Shown piece after piece: positions 22,908-64,000 of a DNA stretch of 64,000 nucleotides. The DNA lies in contig NZ_CP100762.1 in the NCBI RefSeq assembly GCF_024296665.1, forward strand, positions 558,001 through 622,000, in the 5' to 3' direction. Position numbers and translations under genes: made by a program. This stretch comes from Salinilacihabitans rarus (GTDB lineage: Archaea; Halobacteriota; Halobacteria; Halobacteriales; Natrialbaceae). The notes beneath the pieces are model-generated. The model was not told where the DNA came from. It searched no databases and saw only the letters and a program-made list of their open reading frames with translations. Within the stretch, counting starts at the first letter, position 1. Each line of letters opens with the position of its first letter.

Positions 22908-24206
22908 TCAGTTCGAACTCTCGAGTTCGTCAGCGAGGGTGACTGGGTCGTCGATCGCCTCGAGGACGGTTCGGACGGCCTGACGTTCTTCGGCAGACAG
23001 CGGGTCGTCGCTATCGAGCGCCTCGTCAAGTGCGTCGTCGGACGCCGCGTCAGTCTCCTCGGCCAGCTGCTCGATGTCGGGGCCAAAGAGTTCGTCACAG
23101 GACGGGCACCGACGCCAGTGATCTTTGAGGAGTTCGCCACACGTCGGACAGGCGTCGGGAGTCATGGGGCTCTCGCGCTCGGGTTCGCGGTAGCCGACTG
23201 CAATCTCGGCCTTCTCGACGTACTCGTCGTTCGTTACGTGCGCGTAGACCGTCTCGAGGATCGTGCTGTCGGGTGCGACACCGAGCAACGACCGCAGCGT
23301 GTCGCTGTCGAGATCGTAGTCGCGCTTCATGACGGTCACGAAGTAGTGTCGGAAGTTGTGCGGATTCACCGGCTTATCGACGCCAGCCCGATCGGCGATG
23401 CGCTTCAGGTGTTGGCGGATCCCGGGATCGCTCCATGGCTCGTCGAGGTTCGTCCGGTGGTTCTTCGGATCGCCGACGAACAGCGGCGCGTCGGGGTCGT
23501 CCTTTCGAGGATGGTACTGCAGCCAGTCACGGACGTATTTCCGCGCGCCGAACATCGGTCGCTTCCGACCGCGATCGGCAGCGCCTTTCAGTCCGTCGAC
23601 GTCGTCGTTGAGGTAGATCACGCCCTCTTGGACGTCGGCGTCCCGGATGCGAAGCGTCTGAAGTGCGGTGATGCGCTGACCGGTGAAGATGAGCAACTCG
23701 AGGAAGGCCCGGTCTCGCGGCGTCTCGCACGCCTCGCGAAGTGCGTCGACCTCATCGTGAGTGAACATATCCTGTTCGTCGTGGCGCGGCGGCGACCGCT
23801 CGCTGTAGACGTGGATATCGTCGGGGTCGACTCCGAGAGTATCGTGATAGCGGTAGAAGGTCCGTGCGGCGGACTGGTAGCGGGCGAGCGTCGTCTTCGA
23901 GAGGCCACGGTCGTCGTGCTGGCCATCGATGAACGCGTTGAACTCCTCGGCCGAACACTTGAGGAGATCACAGCCGCGCTCGACGCACAGCCGGAGGCTC
24001 TGCAGGTAGGCCTCGATCGACCGCGGAGCGTAGGTCTTCTCGCTCCCGTCGGCGTCGAAGTATTTTCGGCGCGTCGTCTCGCCATCGAGCGCGTCAGCCC
24101 ACTCAAGGAGCGCGTCGCGAACATCTCGCGAGAGTTCGCCGACGTCAGCGAGTTCGTCGATCGTGTTCTTCTCGCGGTTGAGTCGGTCGCGCGGCGTCGT
24201 AGCCAT
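22908..24206 (-). CDS. int: Tyrosine integrase with C-terminal zinc ribbon
   Basis: A 432-residue site-specific recombinase. A SAM-like core-binding domain spans about residues 15-125. The catalytic domain has Arg178 (TGQRITAL), His283-x-x-Arg286 (NPHNFRHYF) and Tyr321 (ETVYAHVT). The usual third-box histidine (LGH) is Val310 (LGVAPDS), a change also tolerated in some recombinases. After the catalytic domain comes a zinc ribbon (CPTC ... CPSC, about 353-370) and an acidic tail, common in haloarchaeal viral integrases. It would integrate and excise the circular genome. No clear attP core was spotted next to it. Confidence 0.9.
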   Translation of the reverse strand: MATTPRDRLNREKNTIDELADVGELSRDVRDALLEWADALDGETTRRKYFDADGSEKTYAPRSIEAYLQSLRLCVERGCDLLKCSAEEFNAFIDGQHDDRGLSKTTLARYQSAARTFYRYHDTLGVDPDDIHVYSERSPPRHDEQDMFTHDEVDALREACETPRDRAFLELLIFTGQRITALQTLRIRDADVQEGVIYLNDDVDGLKGAADRGRKRPMFGARKYVRDWLQYHPRKDDPDAPLFVGDPKNHRTNLDEPWSDPGIRQHLKRIADRAGVDKPVNPHNFRHYFVTVMKRDYDLDSDTLRSLLGVAPDSTILETVYAHVTNDEYVEKAEIAVGYREPERESPMTPDACPTCGELLKDHWRRCPSCDELFGPDIEQLAEETDAASDDALDEALDSDDPLSAEERQAVRTVLEAIDDPVTLADELESSN

Positions 24207-24391
24207 GAACTATCTGGACAGTCAGGTTCTGACACAATAATGTTTGGCGTGTCTGCAACACGGCGAACGCGGTGTTCGTCGTCGCATGGTAACGGCGAAG
24301 AGAGCGTCCAGAACTGCCGAAAACGCGATATTTCTGTCTCGGGTGGAGGGATAGCGTATACTGCTACATCAAACTCAGGGGGTGTTCCGGC
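24207..24391. promoter_or_regulatory. Divergent integrase / replication-protein promoter region
   Basis: On the minus side, CATTATTG about 26-35 nt upstream of the integrase ATG looks like its TATA box. An imperfect palindrome with arms AACAC (24257-24261) and GTGTT (24272-24276), enclosing GCG..CGC, lies between the two genes. It could be an operator or part of an origin next to the replication gene. A GTATAC element near 24358 may serve the plus-strand gene. Confidence 0.4.
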
Positions 24392-51842: not shown

Positions 51843-53281
51843 GGTTCCAATTCCGTTCTGGGTTTCTCCCTGCTGCGACCTACCGACGCGGCCGGTAGAT
51901 ACACCGCCAATCGCCCGTTTCAATCCCGTTCTGGGTTTTCTGACTCCTGCGACACAGCCACAGTCACGGCGGCATCAGCTACGATTAGTTTCAATCCCGT
52001 GCTGGGTTTTCTGACTCCTGCGACTCCGCGATAAGTTCGTTGTCGGGGCCGGGAACAGCTAGTTTCAATCCCGTGCTGGGTTTTCTGACTCCTGCGACAG
52101 CCGGTCGACGAGCGGACGAACGCCTATCGACCGACCGACGCCGGCCGGTTTCAATCCCGTGCTGGGTTTTCTGACTCCTGCGACATGGACTCGCTGACCC
52201 GTTCGCGAGCACTGGAGGCTGTTTCAATCCCGTGCTGGGTTTTCTGACTCCTGCGACGGTCACCTCCGAACGGCAGGTCGAACCCCCAGATGAGTTTCAA
52301 TCCCGTGCTGGGTTTTCTGACTCCTGCGACCGCCTCGGCGTCGCTCTCGTCTTTCACGAGGCCGGCGTTTCAATCCCGTGCTGGGTTTTCTGACTCCTGC
52401 GACATCGTCGGGACGTCGTTGGTGGCGACGGTCTGGCGTTTCAATCCCGTGCTGGGTTTTCTGACTCCTGCGACAATCAGTGACCACGATCGTCTCGGTC
52501 AACTCCGACAGGTTTCAATCCCGTGCTGGGTTTTCTGACTCCTGCGACCTCGCGGATGACTTCCGCGAGCATCCCGACAAGATCGTTTCAATCCCGTGCT
52601 GGGTTTTCTGACTCCTGCGACTTCGGCGGACGTGGGCGACCGACTGTTACTATAGTCTGTTTCAATCCCGTGCTGGGTTTTCTGACTCCTGCGACGGACT
52701 CACACGGGCGCTCCTCGCCGTTTTGGTGTGGGTTTCAATCCCGTGCTGGGTTTTCTGACTCCTGCGACGAGTGGGGCCACGACGAGACCGAGTTACTCGA
52801 CCGGTTTCAATCCCGTGCTGGGTTTTCTGACTCCTGCGACACGAGGATGTTAACCGAGTCGCATTCGACCTCGAACTGTTTCAATCCCGTGCTGGGTTTT
52901 CTGACTCCTGCGACTTCGACACTGAGCAGCGCGACGATGACGGCAACTTCGTTTCAATCCCGTGCTGGGTTTTCTGACTCCTGCGACCGCGATTGTCGTC
53001 GCCGCTCTGATTATAGGAGAGTTGTTTCAATCCCGTGCTGGGTTTTCTGACTCCTGCGACACACGCGGCTCCCGGCGGTCGACGAGCCGGACGAGCTGTT
53101 TCAATCCCGTGCTGGGTTTTCTGACTCCTGCGACTACATCGGTTGCATTGATCCCGGTGAATCTTAATGGTGTTTCAATCCCGTGCTGGGTTTTCTGACT
53201 CCTGCGACAATCGTGCCGGACAGTGACGAACCGTTTGTTGACGAGTTTCAATCCCGTGCTGGGTTTTCTGACTCCTGCGAC
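51843..53281 (-). CRISPR. CRISPR array 2: 19 repeats plus one degenerate terminal repeat
   Basis: Repeats are 37 nt. Read on the minus strand they begin GTCGCAGGAGTCAG and end GGGATTGAAAC, differing from array 1 only at positions 8-11 (GAGT for AGAC). The leader-proximal repeat is 53245-53281. Eighteen copies are identical, and the one at 51917-51953 has a single change. The leader-distal copy at 51843-51879 is strongly degenerate. Spacers are 34-37 nt except one of 49 nt at 52099-52147. Leader and csa3 lie to the right, so transcription runs right to left, opposite to array 1. Confidence 0.97.
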
Positions 53282-53392: not shown

Positions 53393-54043
53393 TTATTCTC
53401 GAGTAACCTCCGAGAGCAACCACCCCGTCGGTGTTACCTCGACGTACTTTGCTCGCCCACTGTTTTGAGTCGTGACCAGACCGTCGTCCTCGAGGACGGC
53501 GACGTGCCGGGCAATCGTACTCGAGTCGTGATCAGTTTTACTGGTGAGTTCAGAGATCGATAGCTGTTGATCAGCCATCGCGAGCGCCCGTAACGTCGGA
53601 CGTGCATGCTCAGGAATTGTTGCGGTAAGGTGGGGAAGCTCAATCTCCGCCACCTGTTGGTCGATATCGGTGTACTGGAACGCCTGTTCGATACGGTGAG
53701 CATACATCGTGGCAGCCATCGAGAGCGGAAGGAACACCTCGCGTGCTCCACCGCCGAAATTGACGATCACCGAACCGTCGGCGTCGTCAATGATCGCACC
53801 ACACTGTTGCACCGCGTCGGGAACGTCGCTCGTATCGATGCGCTCAACTGCAACCTTCACGCCCGGCGTGATCTTCTGGAGCGTCTCTCGCACATGATCG
53901 ACCGCAGCCATTGCACGATCGTCTTCACGCTCCGTTTCGGGCCGCAACAGTCGAACGACGTCGCCGTCCTCAAGTCCGTTACGCAACACTGGTCGCGTAA
54001 CCCGCGTCTCGTCAAACCCCAGCGTCGACACGTACGTCCGCAT
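53393..54043 (-). CDS. csa3: Csa3-family CARF/winged-helix regulator
   Basis: A 216-residue protein. Residues 1-135 form a CARF-like Rossmann domain (MRTYVSTLGFDETRVTRPVL; VIVNFGGGAREVFLPLSMAA as the ligand loop). Residues 145-216 form a winged helix (ISELTSKTDHDSSTIARHVA, then VLEDDGLVTTQNSGRAKYVE). Csa3 proteins sense cyclic oligoadenylate or other signals and regulate cas operons or CRISPR transcripts. The gene diverges from cas6, and its ATG has a TATA-like CTTTAG about 26 nt upstream. Its terminator region doubles as the leader of array 2. It may control both. Confidence 0.85.
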   Translation of the reverse strand: MRTYVSTLGFDETRVTRPVLRNGLEDGDVVRLLRPETEREDDRAMAAVDHVRETLQKITPGVKVAVERIDTSDVPDAVQQCGAIIDDADGSVIVNFGGGAREVFLPLSMAATMYAHRIEQAFQYTDIDQQVAEIELPHLTATIPEHARPTLRALAMADQQLSISELTSKTDHDSSTIARHVAVLEDDGLVTTQNSGRAKYVEVTPTGWLLSEVTRE

Positions 54044-54220: not shown

Positions 54221-55090
54221 GTGTCATCGCAGCACGCCCGACCGCAAACAGCACTCCGGCGCGTCGACTTGACGCTTCGAGCCGAGTCGACGTTTCCAGT
54301 GCCATACTCCGACGGCTACTCGGTGTATGGTGCCTTGCTCGATGCCCTCGATTCGGTTGACGCCGACGTGAGCCAGCGCGTCCACGACGCGCCTCTGGGG
54401 AGTGTCCACAGCAGTGGGCTACTCGGTCCATTCGGGAACAGCAACCGTCCCTATCACAAGTCTGTCCGGAACGGTGAGCAATACCGGCTCTCGCTCGGCA
54501 TCGTCGACCCGTCGGATGTCGAAATCTTCCAGGCGCTTGTCAACGCCGTCGTCCTCGAGGGTAACTCGCTCGAACTTTCCCACGGGTTGCTCCACGTCGA
54601 GACCTTCGAAAGCGAGAACGAGACCCACGAGGAGATCCTTGGACGTGCATCACGCGTGGACGATCCGACGCTCGAAATGCGGTTCCAGACGCCGACCTGC
54701 ATCGAGGAAGCCGGCGACGTGACGACGATGTTCCCGCATCGGATTCCAGTGTTTACCTCGCTACTCGGAAAGTGGAACCGGACCGCACCCGAGGAACTCG
54801 AGTTGGATCTCTCACAGGAGGAGATTGCCGGAAACGTGCTTGAGAAACCCGATCCTGATCGCTACGACACCCACTCGGTACTGGTGAGTCGCGGTGAAAC
54901 CGACGATAGGGAGACCCGAAGCATCATGAAGCAAGGGTTCACCGGCCTGTGTGAGTACGAGTTCAAGGACGCGAGTGAGGCGGTAGAGAACGCCGTAACG
55001 ACGCTTGCGCTGTTCGGGAAGTACTCAGGTGTTGGAAGTGCCGTCGCGCGAGGGTGTGGAGACGTGGAGGTGACTATCTCCGATGACTGA
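54221..55090 (+). CDS. cas6: Cas6 crRNA-processing endoribonuclease
   Basis: A 289-residue RAMP protein with GTG start. It has the ferredoxin-like beginning VDLTLRAESTFPVPYSDGYS and a Gly-rich C-terminal loop (TLALFGKYSGVGSAVARGCG). Cas6 cuts pre-crRNA within each repeat to leave an 8-nt 5' handle; the GGATTGAAAC end of both arrays fits. It is the first gene of the cas operon and its end overlaps the cas10d start by 8 bp. One enzyme would have to handle both repeat variants. Confidence 0.88.
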   Translation: MSSQHARPQTALRRVDLTLRAESTFPVPYSDGYSVYGALLDALDSVDADVSQRVHDAPLGSVHSSGLLGPFGNSNRPYHKSVRNGEQYRLSLGIVDPSDVEIFQALVNAVVLEGNSLELSHGLLHVETFESENETHEEILGRASRVDDPTLEMRFQTPTCIEEAGDVTTMFPHRIPVFTSLLGKWNRTAPEELELDLSQEEIAGNVLEKPDPDRYDTHSVLVSRGETDDRETRSIMKQGFTGLCEYEFKDASEAVENAVTTLALFGKYSGVGSAVARGCGDVEVTISDD

Positions 55091-57611
55091 CGACCGCTCG
55101 GACGAGGACGTCCTCGATTCAATCCTCGGAAATCTCCGTCCACAGTCGGGCGGCGGGACCGAAGTCGAGCGATCGGTGGAGGAGACGGTGCTGGAAGACT
55201 TCCGGACATCCGTCGATCCTAGAATCGTCGACACTGGGTGGGGATTCGAGGCTGCGAAGAGTGTTGAGTTGGGGAAAACGGACCAGTCATTACTCAACCA
55301 TGTCAGGAACGGTGTATTCGTACTCGCACAGTTGAATGAGGCCGCCCGATCGCTCGGCGGATACACACTTGACGAAGCAGATCTGCGAGCTACGATCGCA
55401 TTGTTCACGATCCACGATATCCACAAGCTCAATTCCGAGCGTGACGTGGACCCCGAATCCCGGTTCGACATTTCGGCTAAGGAAGTGCAACAGTACGTCG
55501 AAGCGTTTGGACTCGACGACTTTGCGCCGGAATTGACTACCAAGGATTTCCGATCATGTGCGATCGACCACCATGACGACTGGACGGCCAACTACGACCA
55601 GACGACGCGCCGGTTCGACGATCTGCGTCCGTTCGTACGAGTTGCGGACGCATTTGCATCGTGTGACACACCCGAAGCAGCAACGACTAAATCTGTCCAG
55701 ACAGCGATCAACCGCGCCTATCTCAAATCGGAATTTGAACTCCGCTGCCACGTCATCGATGACGTGAAAGGGGTCTTGACGAATCTCCTGAACGCGGCGG
55801 TCTCCGAACGCTTGGGCGCGTTCGACTATCAGCCGGTGGCGATCTATCAGGACGGATGCGTCTACCTCGCGCCAGAAGATGTGAATCGGCCAGAGGTAGA
55901 TCAAACACTGGTCGATGAAATTTTAGAGCAACTTCAAGAAAATACACAGAAATCACATTCCGCATTCGCGTCTGCAAGCGAACTTAGGTCGAATCTGTCT
56001 ACCCGATATGCGAAGGATTTCTACGGGATCAATGATCAAGATTTCTTCTACGCTGGTGCAGAAACCGTGCTTGCTGCGGTAGCTCAAAAATCTGTTTCGG
56101 ACGCAAATCCAGATGAAGAGCCCACCGAAAACATGGTAGAGACGATGGAGAGTCTTGAGGAATATATCCCACTAAATATTGAACGCACGCGTAGGCCAGT
56201 CGGAATAGCAAGATTCGTATATACCGTACGGCGTGCGTTCGTCGATCCACTGATTGAAGATAATGCAGATTCTCAACTGAAAGAAACATGTAAGATATTA
56301 TCCATCTCTGATGAAGTTCTTGAGGGGTTGCTGAAAGCATCTGAAGAGGATGATAATGATAAGTCAGACTTCTCTTTGACTGCCGGAGGAAGATGGGACT
56401 ATGCTTACGGAATTGGACAAGCTCTGCTCAACGAAGATTTGACCGATCCAGTTAAATTGAAAGAACGAGCCAATTCAGGTCTCAGTCGGCGTGCTGAAAA
56501 TTGGGCCGAGATCGTCGAAGACTTCCATGCCGGAAATCTACGCGAAGAACTCGCAGCGTACCTATCTGACGTGGTATCTATCGATGGATGTCCAATCGCT
56601 GTAGGCAGCGAGACCCTCAGTGACCCATTCGAGGAATATCATAATACCCGGCGGGGGAAAACGTGTGTGCTTTGCAACCGTGGTACAACGAGTACGCGAA
56701 AGGCCGATATCGAGACCCCTAAGTCACTAACAACACTCAAAGCGGGGTATTCCAATCATGTGCCAGTGGATGCCGGCAAACCCGACAATCTGCTCACTTG
56801 TATTCCATGTCAGATAGAACTCTCGTTACGGGAAACCGGTGCATCTCAAAGAGAAGAGGGTCGACTCTTTGTTCACCTGATCCCTGATTACTTCTACACA
56901 CCGCTATCGTGGCGTAGCTACAGCGACGTCATGAGCGAATTTACTGGGGAGAGCCAAATCGAACTCGGACGGCTGGCGGAAGCAATACTGTGGCTGACGG
57001 ACGACCCTGAGGCGGCGAACGTTGAGGGATTCGAGAACGCGCTCTTCGATGAGGAAAGCGGTCGTCCGATGGTTGAAACGCTCGATCAGGGATTTAATCC
57101 GGGAACGCAGTACGGTGCTCGCACTCTCGGGTACTACAAACCGCAAGACAACGAGGCGGAATTCCAGTTCTTCGGTGTGTATGTTGCCCTTGCTGTCGCA
57201 GCATACGCCGGTCTTCGAGTATATGTCTCGGAGTCTCCGATCCCCGACATCAGGGGTCGAGACTTCCAGACGTACGCTCGCGTTGGGGCCGGGTTTACAC
57301 AGGTCCATGATTTCTACAGCACAGAAATACCACTGTCGCGAGTTGAATCCCGATTGCGAGCTGCGTCAGCACTTGTCAAATTAGGGTATGGAGCGATGGA
57401 TAGTAACAATAAAAAGCGAAACGACGCGCTGTTCGCGAAGTTCCTCCGGGTAACGCGGAATCAGCTGCTCCCCGGATCACACCTGCTCAAGCGCATCGCG
57501 CAGGCCGATGATGGCAGTGACGCTCGCTATCTGCTGGAGGAAGCACGGGTGCTCGATCAGGAAACTGGTATAGATTCGACAACTAACACCACCAAAATAC
57601 ACGACAAATGA
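55083..57611 (+). CDS. cas10d: Cas10d (Csc3), type I-D large subunit with HD nuclease
   Basis: An 842-residue protein. The N-terminal HD nuclease domain is intact: His73 (LLNHVRN), His111-Asp112 and His114 (TIHDIHK), His163-164 (IDHHDD) and Asp189 (RVADAF). A zinc site is formed by Cys528, Cys531, Cys573 and Cys576 (CVLC ... CIPC). The chain ends after a helical domain, about 100-150 residues shorter than usual fused Csc3. The missing C-terminal portion follows as the separate gene at 57608. It is the signature gene of type I-D and supplies the DNA-cutting HD activity that Cas3' lacks. Confidence 0.92.
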   Translation: MTDDRSDEDVLDSILGNLRPQSGGGTEVERSVEETVLEDFRTSVDPRIVDTGWGFEAAKSVELGKTDQSLLNHVRNGVFVLAQLNEAARSLGGYTLDEADLRATIALFTIHDIHKLNSERDVDPESRFDISAKEVQQYVEAFGLDDFAPELTTKDFRSCAIDHHDDWTANYDQTTRRFDDLRPFVRVADAFASCDTPEAATTKSVQTAINRAYLKSEFELRCHVIDDVKGVLTNLLNAAVSERLGAFDYQPVAIYQDGCVYLAPEDVNRPEVDQTLVDEILEQLQENTQKSHSAFASASELRSNLSTRYAKDFYGINDQDFFYAGAETVLAAVAQKSVSDANPDEEPTENMVETMESLEEYIPLNIERTRRPVGIARFVYTVRRAFVDPLIEDNADSQLKETCKILSISDEVLEGLLKASEEDDNDKSDFSLTAGGRWDYAYGIGQALLNEDLTDPVKLKERANSGLSRRAENWAEIVEDFHAGNLREELAAYLSDVVSIDGCPIAVGSETLSDPFEEYHNTRRGKTCVLCNRGTTSTRKADIETPKSLTTLKAGYSNHVPVDAGKPDNLLTCIPCQIELSLRETGASQREEGRLFVHLIPDYFYTPLSWRSYSDVMSEFTGESQIELGRLAEAILWLTDDPEAANVEGFENALFDEESGRPMVETLDQGFNPGTQYGARTLGYYKPQDNEAEFQFFGVYVALAVAAYAGLRVYVSESPIPDIRGRDFQTYARVGAGFTQVHDFYSTEIPLSRVESRLRAASALVKLGYGAMDSNNKKRNDALFAKFLRVTRNQLLPGSHLLKRIAQADDGSDARYLLEEARVLDQETGIDSTTNTTKIHDK

Positions 57612-58048
57612 AAGAGACAAGCGATACAATTGCAGAACTCGCAGCGCGTTCGTTCGACGTGATACGGCCCGCGCCGGGAAACGACAAACCGTACGCGATC
57701 GAACGTGTATTCCGCGAGAGCGTCAAGGCAGTCAAAGAGTTCGGACCGCTTGAAATTTCCCGACAGGACGCGATCGATGCAGTTGCCGGTCGAGTCGGGA
57801 AAGTTCCCGAACGAAGTGAACAGGTCTATCGCGTCCCATACGAAGACAGTGATGTCGGTGGCGCTTACAATGAGCGCGTCGAACGATATGCCGAATTCTT
57901 CGTCGATGAGGTCCTAATCGGGATGTTCGACGGCAAGCCGTCGCGGTTGAAGCGCCGGGCGAACAATCTCGCAGACGGGTTCTACGCGGCGACGCTCCGG
58001 CTGCAGCGCGAACAGTTCGAAAACGACTCCGCAAATACCGACAACTAA
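57608..58048 (+). CDS. cas11d: Separate small subunit, Cas11d-like (C-terminal part of Cas10d)
   Basis: A 146-residue helical protein. MKETSDTIAELAARSFDVIR, then a region with YAIERVFRESVKAVKEFGPL, ISRQDAIDAVAGRVGKVPER and VERYAEFFVDEVLIGMFDGK, ending in RLKRRANNLADGFYAATLRL. This matches the order of the C-terminal part of fused Cas10d/Csc3 proteins, which is known in bacterial type I-D to be made additionally as Cas11d from an internal start. Here it has its own gene with an ATGA overlap, so it should be the stand-alone small subunit lining the crRNA backbone. Confidence 0.75.
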   Translation: MKETSDTIAELAARSFDVIRPAPGNDKPYAIERVFRESVKAVKEFGPLEISRQDAIDAVAGRVGKVPERSEQVYRVPYEDSDVGGAYNERVERYAEFFVDEVLIGMFDGKPSRLKRRANNLADGFYAATLRLQREQFENDSANTDN

Positions 58049-59043
58049 TGATCGACCAAGACACCTATCCCGAACTTGAACCTGGTACTGTTCCCGCAGA
58101 CGAGATGACGCTCCGTCCTCGGAGCAATTTCGTTAATCTACTCGTCCTTCGTGAACTCGAGAGTCATGCAGTTTTCACGACCAATGGAGAGGACGCTGAC
58201 ATCGCAACTGTTCCCCTCGGTACCACTAATGGACCTCAGGACTACGCTCCCGGTCTCATGTTCATGCGAAAACAGACCGGGAGCGACCGACGCTTCGGGA
58301 AAGCCCTACAGCGCGACCTCGACCTCTTCGATGATGACGAAGACGAGTGTACGATGCAAGTTAACGAGATGTGTCAAGACTGCATTGAGTGCATCCTCTA
58401 TGGAAGCGCCGCGAGTAACAATGAAGGGAACGACATTTCGATCACTTCGCGGGTCATGTACGACACGGCCTACTCATTACGCGACGCGAGCGTCGTAATT
58501 GACGAGAAGTTCCAGAATGCGCCCGGTGACGATTTCGCCAAATCCGCGGAGGCAACGATCCGGGAACCCGACTTCTTCGAGCCCGGAACGATGTTTCCCA
58601 GCGTCGTGACGCTTCGAGACGCGACTCCAGCAGAGGTCGCGTTCGTACTCGGAATTACTGCCAAGAACAAACGCTATGGAGCGACAACGTCCCGACTCGG
58701 ACGAGTCAATAACCGAATTCTCGGCATGTATGTTGGGAGCGAAGAAGGGCCAGCGAACCTAGAGTTGACGCGAGAAGCGATCTCGCGGTTGCGAGACGAT
58801 GAACGGACCGATTACGATTCGGTTACTGACGTGGTGATGGCCGAAACACTCGATCCGTCACGCACCGCAGATCACGTTCAGGCCGCGTTTGAGGGCGCTA
58901 TCGACGCCGATGGCTTAGACCTAGAACGAGTGTCCGATGGAACGGTCGCCGAGATTCTCGATAAGGCGACGAGCGAGGAGCTCGGCGACTTGCTGGCAGA
59001 GCAGCGAGAACACTCGAGGACATTCCTCGATCAGGCGGAGTAA
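58048..59043 (+). CDS. csc2: Csc2 (Cas7d), type I-D backbone subunit
   Basis: A 331-residue RAMP protein of the Csc2 family. RPRSNFVNLLVLRELESHAV at the start of the fold, then QRDLDLFDDDEDECTMQVNE, a Cys-rich loop (MCQDCIECILYGSAASNNEG) and VTLRDATPAEVAFVLGITAK, NKRYGATTSRLGRVNNRILG. Csc2 multimerises along the crRNA guide in the type I-D Cascade. The gene starts in the TAATG overlap with cas11d and ends 4 bp before csc1. Confidence 0.9.
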   Translation: MIDQDTYPELEPGTVPADEMTLRPRSNFVNLLVLRELESHAVFTTNGEDADIATVPLGTTNGPQDYAPGLMFMRKQTGSDRRFGKALQRDLDLFDDDEDECTMQVNEMCQDCIECILYGSAASNNEGNDISITSRVMYDTAYSLRDASVVIDEKFQNAPGDDFAKSAEATIREPDFFEPGTMFPSVVTLRDATPAEVAFVLGITAKNKRYGATTSRLGRVNNRILGMYVGSEEGPANLELTREAISRLRDDERTDYDSVTDVVMAETLDPSRTADHVQAAFEGAIDADGLDLERVSDGTVAEILDKATSEELGDLLAEQREHSRTFLDQAE

Positions 59044-59047
59044 AGGC

Positions 59048-59755
59048 ATGAAGGTTCTCGAAGCGATTCTTCGGACGCGCGGGGAAGTCACGTTCACCTC
59101 GCGAGAGGTCGGACGACTGGCCGATACGGAGCCGTACATCCTCAACACGGCTCTCTACTACGCGCTGGGTCTCGCGAGTGGTCGCTACGTGGATACCTCA
59201 TACGAACCGACTTATATCGAGGACACTGCGGATATCACCGACATCTACGTCTCGCCTGCTGCGCCAACCGACGAAGCCGCACCGAACTACGTGACGACCA
59301 CCTACAATGCGACGCGCGACGAATACGCGGAGGTGAACTACTCGGCTCAAGATGACCCGAACGCCAAACAGAACCTGCCTTCATATGGGCGACGACGGTC
59401 ACTCGCTCACGGGACGCCGCTCCGGTTTTTCATCATCCCGCGCGGACGATCGGTAGCCGACCTCGAACGACGGTTGCCGAGCTACGTCAGGCTGGGCAAA
59501 AAACGAGGGAAAGCCAGACTCGATGTCAAACGACGCCCTTCAACCCGACAAACCGGAAAGTTTAGACTGAATCATCCGATCGGCGCGTACGATCATCCCG
59601 ATCCTCCAGAGGGTAATGTCATTACGAAGGCGATGAAGCCCACGCCACTCGTGATGCAGGGCGATTACACCGGCGAGTACATCAGCATCGACCGGGGCGA
59701 GAACGACCCTATTCACTTTCCTGCCGGACTCATCTTCCTCGCGACCAAACGATGA
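59048..59755 (+). CDS. csc1: Csc1 (Cas5d), type I-D crRNA 5'-handle subunit
   Basis: A 235-residue protein. MKVLEAILRTRGEVTFTSRE then LADTEPYILNTALYYALGLA is the typical Csc1 opening; RGRSVADLERRLPSYVRLGK and PTPLVMQGDYTGEYI follow. It caps the 5' end of the crRNA and takes part in PAM recognition in type I-D. The start at 59048 lies 4 bp after the csc2 stop; a longer upstream frame would overlap csc2. The stop overlaps cas3' by ATGA. Confidence 0.9.
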   Translation: MKVLEAILRTRGEVTFTSREVGRLADTEPYILNTALYYALGLASGRYVDTSYEPTYIEDTADITDIYVSPAAPTDEAAPNYVTTTYNATRDEYAEVNYSAQDDPNAKQNLPSYGRRRSLAHGTPLRFFIIPRGRSVADLERRLPSYVRLGKKRGKARLDVKRRPSTRQTGKFRLNHPIGAYDHPDPPEGNVITKAMKPTPLVMQGDYTGEYISIDRGENDPIHFPAGLIFLATKR

Positions 59756-61851
59756 CAACGCTCAATCTCGCCGGCGTTGCACTCCGAACGTACGATCATC
59801 CCTATCCGTTCGACGTCGCTCCCTTCGCCCACCAGCGGGAAATGTTGTGGTTATTTCAAGAACGCGATCGATTTGTCGCGGTAAACGATAGTCCAACTGG
59901 TGGTGGAAAAACATCGTCGTGGCTGGCCCCAGTCCTCGACGAACAACTCGACACAATCGCGATCTACCCCACCAACGCGCTCATTGCAGATCAGCAAGAT
60001 GCCATCCAACGTGCAGTCGACGATGCAGTAAATCACGACGTTGCCGTGTTGAGAGTGACCGCGGACAGGCTAGCTGAAAGGAGTGACCAGTTCGCTCCTA
60101 ATTCGCATGGAGGAGTCCTTGACGACTGGCTTCAACAGGAGGGACGCTACAACGATCAGCGTATCCTGTTGACGAACCCAGACCTTCTCGTGATGATGCG
60201 TCGCAACCTCTATCGAAGAGGATCACGTGAATACAAGGACTTCGAAGCCGCGATCGTCGATGAATTTCATCGAGCCGGTCGCAAGGAGCAGAACACTCTT
60301 CGCTTTCTGCTTGACGAGATGCAAGCGGAAGACGAGGAGATCGTCGCGCTCCGGAAGGTGGCGTTTCTTAGTGCGACACCTGACGAACGCCAAGAACGAC
60401 TTTTCGAACACGCGATGGAGGCACCGTACGTGCGGATCACCAAAGAAAATTGTTGTGAACTGGCATCGTTCACCGATCCACCCGGCGACGATTGGTACGG
60501 AGTAATGCCACCTATCGAACTCAATGTCCGAACGGCGCCAACCTTCGGCACGGGTGAGACACTCAAAAGCGATGAGGAGGAGACGCTGTCGTTCTGTCGC
60601 AGGGGCAGAACGGTCATCATGCTCGACGGTATTCACGAGGTCGAAGCCGTCCACAGGTGGCTCCAGAACACGCTTGACGGCCGCGTTGAACGGATTGACG
60701 GCTTCGACAGGGGCGACAAGCGCGAAAAACTCAATCAGTTCGACGTTTTGGTCAGCAATTCGGCCGTTGAGGTCGGTATTGACTTCGATGTTGACCGAAT
60801 TCTCTTCGCCGGTCATGACAAGGATAGCTTTCTCCAGCGACTCGGACGGTTGCGCTCGGAGACCTGTTTACGGAAAGCCCGGTGTTACGTGCCAGCAGGG
60901 ATTGCCGATATGTTGTCGAACCACGACAGCGAGACACTTACCCGACAGGAACTTGATGAGTTGCTGGACGACGCATACCCCGAACCACGTCGTCCCGAGA
61001 CATTCGACGCACGATACTCAGCGGCAGAGGCGTTCGAACACCTCAATGATCGGCTACGAAACGCTCCGCCAGACGAAGTGCAAGAGATCAAGCGATCGAC
61101 ACTTGACCGTATCAAACGGCACTTTGGCATCGGATCGGAAACGGAGTTTTCGCTCCGAGATATGGAGGCGTTCACCGGTGCCCTCAACTGGCGAGTACTG
61201 ACGAAACTACAGTGGTACCGAGGAGATAGCATTCAGTCACTCGTCTACGACCGGACGAGAGAGTACGTCACCGTCTACGACCTGTTTTACCTCCTTAGGT
61301 ACGGCAACGTAGAATTCGTCGACCGCGGAACGTTCGAGCGGATCATTCCAGATAGACACAGAGACAGTATCGACCGTAGCCATCGATATGTCGACGGGTT
61401 CTGTATCTACGACGGGACGATCCAGACCAACGACGAAGGTTACGGTCGCAACGTGTATTTTACGGGTGGCACGCTGAACGCGTGGCTGGACCAGACCTCG
61501 AATACAGGACGGAAACCACAGACAAAATCTGGGTTGCGAATCGACGTCGATCCGAATGGGACTGGATCGCGCGTTCCTTCAATCACGAAGGTCAACGAAC
61601 GACTTCGCAAACGAGGTGAGCGAGTTGACGACGAAGAAGAAGGATTACTGTGTTATGCTGTTAGTGGCTCTCCTAGTCGCGTGAAACGACAGTACGGCCT
61701 CGACGACTTTTTCTTCCTTTATCCGATTCAGGTACAGAACAAAGCTGTGCATAGTCTCGCTATCGGAACTGATGCTCTCTACCTTCATTGTCACGTTCTC
61801 GAACAAAAGAACCGGCTGACGGATGATACCGGATCTATTAACTCCATATGA
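59752..61851 (+). CDS. cas3: Cas3' helicase of type I-D, complete
   Basis: A 699-residue superfamily 2 helicase without HD domain, as in type I-D where the HD nuclease is in Cas10d. Motif I is SPTGGGKT (residues 47-54), motif II DEFH (169-172), motif III LSATPD (205-210), motif V SAVEVGIDFD and motif VI QRLGRLR. The C-terminal 280 residues are an accessory domain. It would unwind target DNA after Cascade binding. It overlaps csc1 and cas4 by ATGA, so it sits between the interference and adaptation genes in one operon. Confidence 0.93.
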   Translation: MTTLNLAGVALRTYDHPYPFDVAPFAHQREMLWLFQERDRFVAVNDSPTGGGKTSSWLAPVLDEQLDTIAIYPTNALIADQQDAIQRAVDDAVNHDVAVLRVTADRLAERSDQFAPNSHGGVLDDWLQQEGRYNDQRILLTNPDLLVMMRRNLYRRGSREYKDFEAAIVDEFHRAGRKEQNTLRFLLDEMQAEDEEIVALRKVAFLSATPDERQERLFEHAMEAPYVRITKENCCELASFTDPPGDDWYGVMPPIELNVRTAPTFGTGETLKSDEEETLSFCRRGRTVIMLDGIHEVEAVHRWLQNTLDGRVERIDGFDRGDKREKLNQFDVLVSNSAVEVGIDFDVDRILFAGHDKDSFLQRLGRLRSETCLRKARCYVPAGIADMLSNHDSETLTRQELDELLDDAYPEPRRPETFDARYSAAEAFEHLNDRLRNAPPDEVQEIKRSTLDRIKRHFGIGSETEFSLRDMEAFTGALNWRVLTKLQWYRGDSIQSLVYDRTREYVTVYDLFYLLRYGNVEFVDRGTFERIIPDRHRDSIDRSHRYVDGFCIYDGTIQTNDEGYGRNVYFTGGTLNAWLDQTSNTGRKPQTKSGLRIDVDPNGTGSRVPSITKVNERLRKRGERVDDEEEGLLCYAVSGSPSRVKRQYGLDDFFFLYPIQVQNKAVHSLAIGTDALYLHCHVLEQKNRLTDDTGSINSI

Positions 61852-62456
61852 TAGGATCGGGATTCAGGGATGAACTCGTGCACGTTAGTGCGTTACAGGA
61901 GTTCGTTTATTGTTCACGACGATATTACTATCATCGATATCACGATCAGATCGGTTCGCCGTTTGAGCTCGTTGACGGGCGATCGAAACACGCTACCCAG
62001 TCACGCCGTGGCGGTTGGACCACGGAACGGTACTTCCGATCGGAAGAGCTCGGATTGCATGGAAAGATTGACCTCGTCGAGAGTGATCATGGTTCGCTTA
62101 CCCCTGTCGAGCGGAAACGGGCCGAGAGTGGGGATTACTATCTGAGTGATGAGGTTCAGTTGGCTGGATACTGTATGTTGCTTGAGTCTGCGATCGATGA
62201 GCAAGTCAATGTCGGATATATTTATCTCTACTCGACAGACGAACGACACGCGATCCGAATTTCGGACAACCATCGACAAACCGTGGAAGAAACCGTCTCC
62301 CGCATCAACTCGATGACTGTCAGTTCGATCCCACCATTCACGGATAATCCGAGTAAATGCGACGGCTGTTCTGCACGCGAATACTGCCTACCGGCTGAAA
62401 CCGCCCGAATGGAACATGATAAAGTCCGTGGCACAGGCTGGGAGGACCAGCAATGA
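61848..62456 (+). CDS. cas4: Cas4 (overlap copy of 1106-1714)
   Basis: Identical protein to the gene at 1106-1714, with the four-cysteine cluster (Cys22, 171, 174, 180) and the Asp75/Glu88/Lys90 site. In this copy the upstream gene is the complete cas3', which confirms that cas4 belongs to the same operon as the interference genes. It counts once if the molecule is circular. Confidence 0.95.
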   Translation: MIGSGFRDELVHVSALQEFVYCSRRYYYHRYHDQIGSPFELVDGRSKHATQSRRGGWTTERYFRSEELGLHGKIDLVESDHGSLTPVERKRAESGDYYLSDEVQLAGYCMLLESAIDEQVNVGYIYLYSTDERHAIRISDNHRQTVEETVSRINSMTVSSIPPFTDNPSKCDGCSAREYCLPAETARMEHDKVRGTGWEDQQ

Positions 62457-63457
62457 AAGAATCAGAAGCGATCTTCGAGGATTCGGTCATCTTCGTGACC
62501 AAACAAGGTACCCAAGTCCGGATCGACGGGGGGCAGGTCGTGATCTGGAACGTCGACGCCGAGGAAGATGAAGACCGAAAATTAGCTGGATATCCGATCG
62601 AGCAGCTAGATACAATCAACGTCTTCGGCGGGGTCAACTTCTCGACGCCGTTCGTCGCGAAGGCAAACGAACACGGGATCGTCCTCAACTACTTCACCGA
62701 GAACGGGAAGTACCGAGGAAGCTTTGTTCCTGAGAAGAACACAATCGCGGAGGTCCGTCGAGCACAGTACGCCCTCTCGAGGGATGATGAGATCGCTATC
62801 GCTCGACAGATGATTCAGGCGAAGGTTCGCAACGCACGAACGCTGCTCTCCCGGAAGGGCGTGTACGGAACGGATGTCCTCAAGGACCTTGGTGTCCGGG
62901 TGGAGGACGCGACGACGAAAGACGACATCCGTGGCGTGGAGGGTGAAGCTGCAGAGCGATACTTCCAGCGACTCGACGAGACGCTCATCGACGGCTGGAC
63001 GTTCGAAAAACGGACAAAACGACCACCGGAAGATCACATCAACTCGTTGTTATCACTGACCTACGTCTTCATGAAAAACGAGGTACTGGCTGCACTTCGA
63101 CAATATAATCTTGATCCGTTTCTCGGTGTGTTACACGCTGATCGCCACGGCCGCCCATCACTCGCATTGGACCTCCAGGAGGAGTTTCGACCGATCTTCT
63201 GCGATGCCTTCGTCACGCGGCTAGTCAACCGAGGGACGATTACCCACGACGACTTCCGGAAGGACAACCGACTCAACGGCGACGCGTTCAAGACCTACTG
63301 CGCGAAGTTCGACGAGTTCATGAAAGAAGAACTGACCCACCCACACTTTGAGTACACCGTCACGCGACGTAAGGCAATTCGCCAGCAAGCAATTCTCTTG
63401 CGAAAGACAATCACTAGCGAGCTCGACAAGTATCACTCATTTTCGTTTGTACGATAA
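62453..63457 (+). CDS. cas1: Cas1 (overlap copy of 1711-2715)
   Basis: Identical to the gene at 1711-2715, with Glu163, His228 and Glu243 in place. It overlaps cas4 and precedes cas2 by 2 bp. It is the same gene if the molecule is circular. Confidence 0.96.
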   Translation: MKESEAIFEDSVIFVTKQGTQVRIDGGQVVIWNVDAEEDEDRKLAGYPIEQLDTINVFGGVNFSTPFVAKANEHGIVLNYFTENGKYRGSFVPEKNTIAEVRRAQYALSRDDEIAIARQMIQAKVRNARTLLSRKGVYGTDVLKDLGVRVEDATTKDDIRGVEGEAAERYFQRLDETLIDGWTFEKRTKRPPEDHINSLLSLTYVFMKNEVLAALRQYNLDPFLGVLHADRHGRPSLALDLQEEFRPIFCDAFVTRLVNRGTITHDDFRKDNRLNGDAFKTYCAKFDEFMKEELTHPHFEYTVTRRKAIRQQAILLRKTITSELDKYHSFSFVR

Positions 63458-63459
63458 CC

Positions 63460-63732
63460 ATGCGTCTCGTGATCGCATACGACGTCAGCGACGATACAAA
63501 TCGCCGCCGTGTGTATCGGACGCTACAACGATACGGTGCTTGGCAACAGTACAGTGTCTTCGAACTCGAGATAGACAGTGCCCAACGCGTCGAGCTGGTA
63601 GACGAACTTGAGTCATACATCAATTCTAGCGACGGAGACCGAATTCGGATCTATCGACTCTGTAGTGCCTGCCAAGACGCGACGACGGATATCGGGAGTG
63701 AGCCACCCGACGAACAGTCGAACGTAATCTGA
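63460..63732 (+). CDS. cas2: Cas2 (overlap copy of 2718-2990)
   Basis: Identical to the gene at 2718-2990, including the N-terminal Asp8 strand. It is followed by the same leader and the first repeats of array 1. Confidence 0.96.
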   Translation: MRLVIAYDVSDDTNRRRVYRTLQRYGAWQQYSVFELEIDSAQRVELVDELESYINSSDGDRIRIYRLCSACQDATTDIGSEPPDEQSNVI

Positions 63733-63849: not shown

Positions 63850-64000
63850 GTCGCAGAGACCAGAAAACCCAGCACGGGATTGAAACAATTATCTGCTTGC
63901 AGGTACGCCCATTCGCGCCAATCGTCGCAGAGACCAGAAAACCCAGCACGGGATTGAAACCCTACTGGATCAGCTATACGATGCCCTCGCGCGAGGACGT
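63850..64000 (+). CRISPR. Start of CRISPR array 1 (overlap copy, cut by window end)
   Basis: Repeats at 63850-63886 and 63924-63960 with one full 37-nt spacer between them, then a 38-nt spacer and the first two bases of a third repeat. It is the same as 3108-3258. Confidence 0.97.

Follow-up and report, generated by a model that had tools for sequence, protein, structure and literature searches.

A haloarchaeal type I-D CRISPR–Cas locus with a predicted stand-alone cas11d gene at the cas10d stop codon

The window, a 64,000-nucleotide stretch of the Salinilacihabitans rarus genome, very probably encodes a complete type I-D CRISPR–Cas system in which the small subunit, Cas11d, is specified by a gene of its own, would be expressed by reinitiation together with, probably, direct initiation, and would build the small-subunit filament entirely from free Cas11d. 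The large-subunit gene cas10d/csc3 (55083–57611, + strand) encodes 842 residues and is closed by a TGA (57609–57611) that lies inside the start of the stand-alone small-subunit gene cas11d (57608–58048, + strand; 146 residues; ATG at 57608–57610). The second gene is in the −1 frame relative to the first, and the 4-nt stop/start overlap, ATGA (57608–57611, + strand), is on sequence grounds a putative termination–reinitiation site. The first-pass annotation had described a cas10d stopping after 842 residues and a 146-residue ORF entered through ATGA, and its coordinates, lengths and overlap proved exact. Conservation across relatives and a structural model together show a predicted Cas10d in which the HD, palm/zinc-finger and thumb regions are retained and the Cas11 domain is missing; the HD motif (H111 D112) is invariant and the zinc-finger cysteines are conserved.

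The two genes lie within a run of closely packed cas genes, all on the + strand. The upstream neighbor, cas6 (Cas6d; 54221–55090; PDLC02043, E 7e-135), overlaps cas10d by 8 nt, while cas11d shares 1 nt (TAATG) with cas7d/csc2 (58048–59043; TIGR03157, E 8e-87). Next is cas5d/csc1 (59048–59755; TIGR03159, E 1e-51), the likely start of which is Met38 of the ORF at 58937, where the PDLC02040 match begins. The genes for the Cas3′ helicase (59752–61851; TIGR03158, E 2e-85), cas4 (61848–62456; TIGR00372, E 1e-29) and cas1 (Cas1d; 62453–63457; TIGR04093, E 6e-112) each overlap the preceding gene by 4 nt, and a 90-residue ORF (63460–63732), positioned as cas2 is in Halorussus pelagicus, is a probable cas2. 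Upstream of the operon are a csa3 CARF-HTH regulator gene (53393–54043, − strand; TIGR01884, E 2e-25) and CRISPR array 1 (51917–53281, + strand), which contains 19 repeats of 37 nt, GTTTCAATCCCGTGCTGGGTTTTCTGACTCCTGCGAC, and whose spacers gave no match to phage records. Array 2 starts at 63850 (63850–64000 in the window, − strand), carries 41 copies of a variant repeat and runs to window coordinate about 66800. The arrays flank the operon in opposite orientation, and their repeat ends differ slightly (TGACTCCTGCGAC versus TGGTCTCTGCGAC). Matches above cut-off to TIGR03174, TIGR03157, TIGR03159 and TIGR03158 are those of type I-D, and the operon is accompanied by the two arrays, by cas4 and cas1 from profile matches and by cas2 from its position only. 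The usual I-D trait of a small subunit inside cas10d is absent, as cas11d is in another frame; the locus is a type I-D variant, its subtype being defined by its other genes.

Profile searches showed that the Csc3 family is divided between the two proteins. The 842-residue protein covers positions 1–785 of TIGR03174 (Csc3, 946 positions) and the 146-residue protein matches 825–946 (E 1.8e-23, above cut-off); likewise, the PADLOC Cas10_Id profile PDLC02023 (964 positions) is covered at 19–820 by Cas10d and matched at 825–963 by the small protein (E 2.6e-55). This complementary coverage of the Csc3 profiles and the associated E values argue that the small ORF is not a chance reading frame. PDB sequence searches using the small protein alone or its profile did not identify Cas11d significantly, the Cas11d chain 7sba_J appearing with an E of 0.45 among chance influenza HA2 matches; the fold comparison recovered it. 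An AF2 model of the small protein, generated from a 21-sequence alignment (pLDDT 89.9, pTM 0.87), had as its best Foldseek match in the PDB the same chain, Cas11d of 7SBA (prob 1.00, TM 0.71). By VIA-align, the model aligned with residues 830–975 of 7sba_I (Z 16.8, 136 aligned, rmsd 2.9) and with residues 718–847 of 6yes_A (Z 8.7). The I-D entries 7sba, 7sbb, 6yes and 6thh gave Z values of 8.7–16.8 and unrelated structures at most 7.1.

These alignments also indicate where the break falls. Residue 1 of the small-protein model pairs with residue 830 of 7sba_I, and the Synechocystis Cas10d (pSYSA, 975 aa) has a Met at 830 in the codon context ATGACC; residues 830–975 number 146, as many as in the solved Cas11d chain 7sba_J. 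The model of the 842-residue Cas10d, which is of moderate quality (pLDDT 68.5) and poor at 508–591 and 621–674, aligns to 7sba_I 14–837 and to 6yes_B 14–722. The alignment of the small protein to 830–975, the presence of Met830 and the end of the Cas10d model alignment at 837 of 7sba_I thus place the break at the known internal-start residue. Among fused relatives, all 20 proteins have a Met in an 11-residue window where the Cas11 domain begins, compared to 0.175 expected for each on average from the Met content of each protein; although not independent of one another, these 20 are drawn from several deep lineages. Sequence and modeled fold together show the 146-residue protein to be a predicted Cas11d with its own gene, the first residue of which would correspond to the internal-start Met of a fused cas10d. 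This bears out the first-pass annotation, which had proposed both a separate cas11d gene and a split at the internal start of the fused forms, and had counted the lack of an alignment to the Csc3 C-terminus as a refutation.

Each protein was used as a query against 391 genomes of the haloarchaeal class, and the survey was extended to 392 genomes from the order, 392 from the phylum and the GTDB contigs. The loci parsed comprised 17 intact split loci, 1 decayed split locus and 20 fused loci, and none of them combined a fused domain with a separate cas11d. Split loci are present in Halorhabdus amylolytica, Natrialba asiatica, Haloferax sulfurifontis, three Halarchaeum species, Halococcus dombrowskii and Halorutilus salinus, as well as in a Halorientalis MAG, genomes G359 and G174, an ANME-2 MAG and one contig from an Eremiobacterota bin. 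Among the fused loci are those of Halorubrum lacusprofundi, Natribaculum luteum, Halorussus pelagicus and Halorientalis persicus, together with five from distant members of the phylum. The split locus on the Candidatus Eremiobacterota contig (L066) is nearly identical to that of the ANME-2 MAG (L065), so the contig is possibly misbinned; a recent transfer is the other possibility. The decayed I-D locus (L107, genome G297) has in-frame stops in cas10d, and its separate small-subunit ORF is still open. In the public record of Halococcus dombrowskii the halves are two intact overlapping CDS, and because both are named "Cas10d/Csc3" the split is hidden in the annotation.

The survey of haloarchaeal I-D loci suggested in the first-pass annotation revealed this split in at least ten other species, at the identical ATG and with differing nucleotides around it. 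This recurrence bears directly on whether the split is simply damage, be it a cas10d that has become a pseudogene or an error of sequencing or assembly. Decay does occur in this family, as the in-frame stops in G297 illustrate, and a second copy of the whole cas locus, located 60,742 bp upstream, is identical to that analyzed here, so the two copies are not independent witnesses. Against this, the species that share the split are independent of one another, all cas genes and both arrays in the window are intact, and the Halococcus dombrowskii record annotates two intact genes. In addition, the dN/dS of the small gene is 0.03–0.05 in five of seven pairs, where it is lower than that of cas10d, and 0.18 and 0.24 in the other two, and these ratios indicate that both halves are under purifying selection. 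Damage is scarcely credible given the recurrence and the selection, and we rejected it; the same two results exclude the single-base sequencing error that the first-pass annotation had listed as a refutation.

Every overlap in the intact haloarchaeal split loci is exactly 4 nt, ATGA. With cas11d in the −1 frame, this is the geometry by which a fusing slip could occur, and programmed −1 frameshifting would make the two ORFs a single gene in which slippage at the overlap still yields a full-length Cas10d–Cas11d fusion. However, a slippery heptamer is absent, and the nucleotides before the overlap are not conserved across the split loci, the preceding cas10d codon being variously AAA, GAA, AGA or CCA. 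Moreover, in the ANME-2-type pair the overlap is 8 nt long and lies in the other frame, and in G507 the halves are separated by a 5-nt gap (the distant G485 is likewise split), so that no common slip would bridge all of them. The other junctions of the operon are also mostly short overlaps or gaps, and the cas10d/cas11d junction thus looks like an ordinary gene boundary. Frameshifting is accordingly very improbable and was rejected, as the slippery motif is missing and both the frame and the length of the overlap differ between lineages.

How, then, might Cas11d be made? The window cas11d ATG has no Shine-Dalgarno motif upstream. Such motifs are often missing in haloarchaea, and they are missing in most of the haloarchaeal split loci, which led us to reject the motif as a general explanation. 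Termination–reinitiation at the ATGA is the likely expression route, by analogy to Haloferax. In H. volcanii, nine of nine gene pairs with a short overlap or short gap, an ATGA overlap included, were strictly coupled (PMC6728339), and reinitiation declines steeply with distance (PMC10666635); the 4-nt overlap that this locus shares with the other intact haloarchaeal split loci has the stop–start spacing of a reinitiation pair. A ribosome that finishes Cas10d would reinitiate at the overlapping ATG to yield Cas11d, as the Haloferax ATGA overlaps suggest, and direct initiation at the same ATG, the counterpart of which is kept in all fused relatives, would probably add more.

The demand for Cas11d can be estimated from the solved I-D Cascade, Cas10d1:Cas7d7:Cas5d1:Cas11d2, in which the Cas11 domain of Cas10d forms a further filament element (PMC9123187). 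Since a fused system combines one Cas10d bearing a Cas11 domain with two Cas11d, a split system would need about three Cas11d per Cas10d. Free Cas11d would occupy all small-subunit sites on the Cas7d backbone, among them the site by the Cas10d thumb, which fused systems fill with a covalently attached domain. A single Cas11d for each Cas10d would be too few, and so both reinitiation and direct initiation, or unequal stability of the subunits, are to be expected. The argument in the first-pass annotation that coupling would fix the subunit ratio is for the same reason incomplete, as strict 1:1 coupling would under-supply the filament. In other respects we envisage an ordinary I-D Cascade, whereby Cas11d would stabilize the R-loop and the displaced strand, after which Cas3′ would be recruited and the HD domain of Cas10d would cut.

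The stoichiometry is also compatible with direct internal initiation as the only route, as in the fused systems, with the ATGA a mere by-product of frame loss and coupling irrelevant. The ATG and its position are identical in fused and split forms, an internal start is proven for Haloferax Cas11b (PMC11899642), and the second codon in the fused genes usually begins with A (Met-Ser/Thr), from which it follows that a frame change gives ATGA automatically. Yet all nine H. volcanii pairs cited above were strictly coupled, and most other boundaries in this operon are short overlaps or gaps like this one. We therefore consider direct initiation alone possible though unlikely, and favor reinitiation supplemented by probable direct initiation.

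The distribution of the two layouts was analyzed on a tree of 38 Cas10d proteins (822 columns, Cas11 domain excluded). This tree requires at least six split/fused changes, five of them forced by well-supported branches; removal of long branches and the decayed locus leaves at least five, four of them so forced. A single origin of the split set was rejected by the AU test (p-AU 4e-5), which eliminates a simple single fission, and fused tips (Halorussus pelagicus, G273 and YIM A00013) are nested in split clades. On this tree, lineages changed from one layout to the other several times. The direction of change depends on the weighting: equal costs give four fissions and one fusion, costly fusions give six fissions, and costly fissions give one fission and four fusions. 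The first-pass annotation had spoken of natural fission. Because split and fused forms are interleaved, fission is only one possible direction, and the tree allows anything from six fissions to one old fission followed by four re-fusions.

A simple mechanism may underlie these switches. Because Cas11d is already translated independently in the fused form, a frame-changing indel just upstream of its ATG would split the gene with little penalty, and a second, compensating indel would re-fuse it, as appears to have happened several times. In a large fused haloarchaeal clade (loci L015, L016, L018–L023, L063 and L067), the internal start reads ATGAGTGA or ATGACTGA and both other frames stop within 8 nt, so that any upstream frame change would end at the cas11d start. 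Our reading is that these closed frames make the split nearly free; alternatively, they could be mere Met-Ser/Thr-Asp codons. Once split, a Cascade has no covalently attached Cas11 domain, and the small subunit beside Cas10d would thus be exchangeable. Between Halarchaeum rubridurum and H. nitratireducens, Cas10d is 93% identical and Cas11d 67%, and the nucleotide identity dips only in cas11d (L062:7450-7888 versus L061), the flanks being about 88–97% identical. That cas11d alone is divergent suggests that it was exchanged separately or evolved very differently. On balance, we favor the view that the cas10d/cas11d boundary is an evolutionary switch, at which small indels shortly before a conserved ATG repeatedly interconvert a gene within a gene and a two-gene operon with the product kept, and that the small subunit of split lineages is exchangeable and recombines separately.

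The cas locus resides in a 60,742-bp element that is bounded by a 19-bp direct repeat and is present as an exact tandem dimer. The duplication spans genome positions 521518–643020, with copies of the repeat, ACGGCGAACGCGGTGTTCG, at the left end, in the middle (window 24260–24278) and at the right end; it represents either an integrated element in dimeric form or an artefact of the assembly of such an element. A tyrosine integrase gene (22908–24206, − strand) lies beside the middle repeat. The same element contains head-tailed virus genes (window 24392–51713) for a replication protein, terminase large subunit, portal, maturation protease, head, minor tail and long tail-like protein, indicating that an archaeal provirus here carries a complete I-D system together with its two arrays and its adaptation genes. 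Provirus-borne haloarchaeal CRISPR systems are known in the form of adaptation-less I-B systems (PMC12596717), a report with no mention of a complete I-D system with cas1 and two arrays. No relative of the window Cas10d was found on IMG/VR viral contigs, nor did the 20-kb flanks of six related I-D loci or the 5-kb flanks of others contain relatives of the window virion genes, the sole match in the flanks examined being a weak one, for the replication protein, near the Natrialba asiatica locus. The provirus setting is thus not general for the clade.

In the reports that we found, I-D Cas11d has so far been described as an internal product of cas10d, and a review states that internal Cas11d expression is apparently widely conserved in all Cas10d lineages (PMC10212523). 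Our literature search, mostly without subscription papers, yielded no account of a stand-alone I-D cas11d, though a passing mention may exist. The natural split indicates that covalent attachment of the Cas11 domain to Cas10d is dispensable. As I-D tools in eukaryotic cells are helped by added cas11d (PMC10212523), separate cas11d genes are ready-made for such tools, and the related split and fused loci form a clean set for studying how genes within genes and operons are interchanged.

The closest structural counterpart is the Synechocystis PCC 6803 I-D Cascade (7SBA, 7SBB), which has the same subunits and a 146-residue Cas11d with the same fold, starting at Met830. There, however, Cas11d arises from inside a 975-aa cas10d and Cas10d retains its Cas11 domain, whereas here the two are in separate frames and the domain is missing. 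That type I-D Cascade, with its Cas10d/Cas11d, was reportedly described by McBride in 2020 (cited in PMC10212523). In type III (Csm2/Cmr5) and I-A/I-E systems the small subunit is, as here, its own gene in a multi-gene operon, and the helical fold of our small protein is similar to 8bmw_B (Z 5.0). Those genes, however, are not the detached 3′ end of a large-subunit gene, and type III Cas10 retains its own Cas11-like C-terminal domain. Haloferax volcanii I-B Cas8b/Cas11b offers a haloarchaeal small subunit that also comes from the 3′ end of the large-subunit gene, but in another subtype and from an experimentally established internal in-frame start within an intact cas8b rather than from a separate frame (PMC11899642). 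The Sulfolobus islandicus Cas10d (6YES, 6THH) has the same domain order, and its Cas11-like domain, residues 718–847, is the region matched by the small protein at Z 8.7; it is a fused 847-aa protein with a 14-kDa internal-start product (PMC7689449), in contrast to the split form here. The same study states that I-D lacks a cas11 gene (PMC7689449), which does not hold for this clade.
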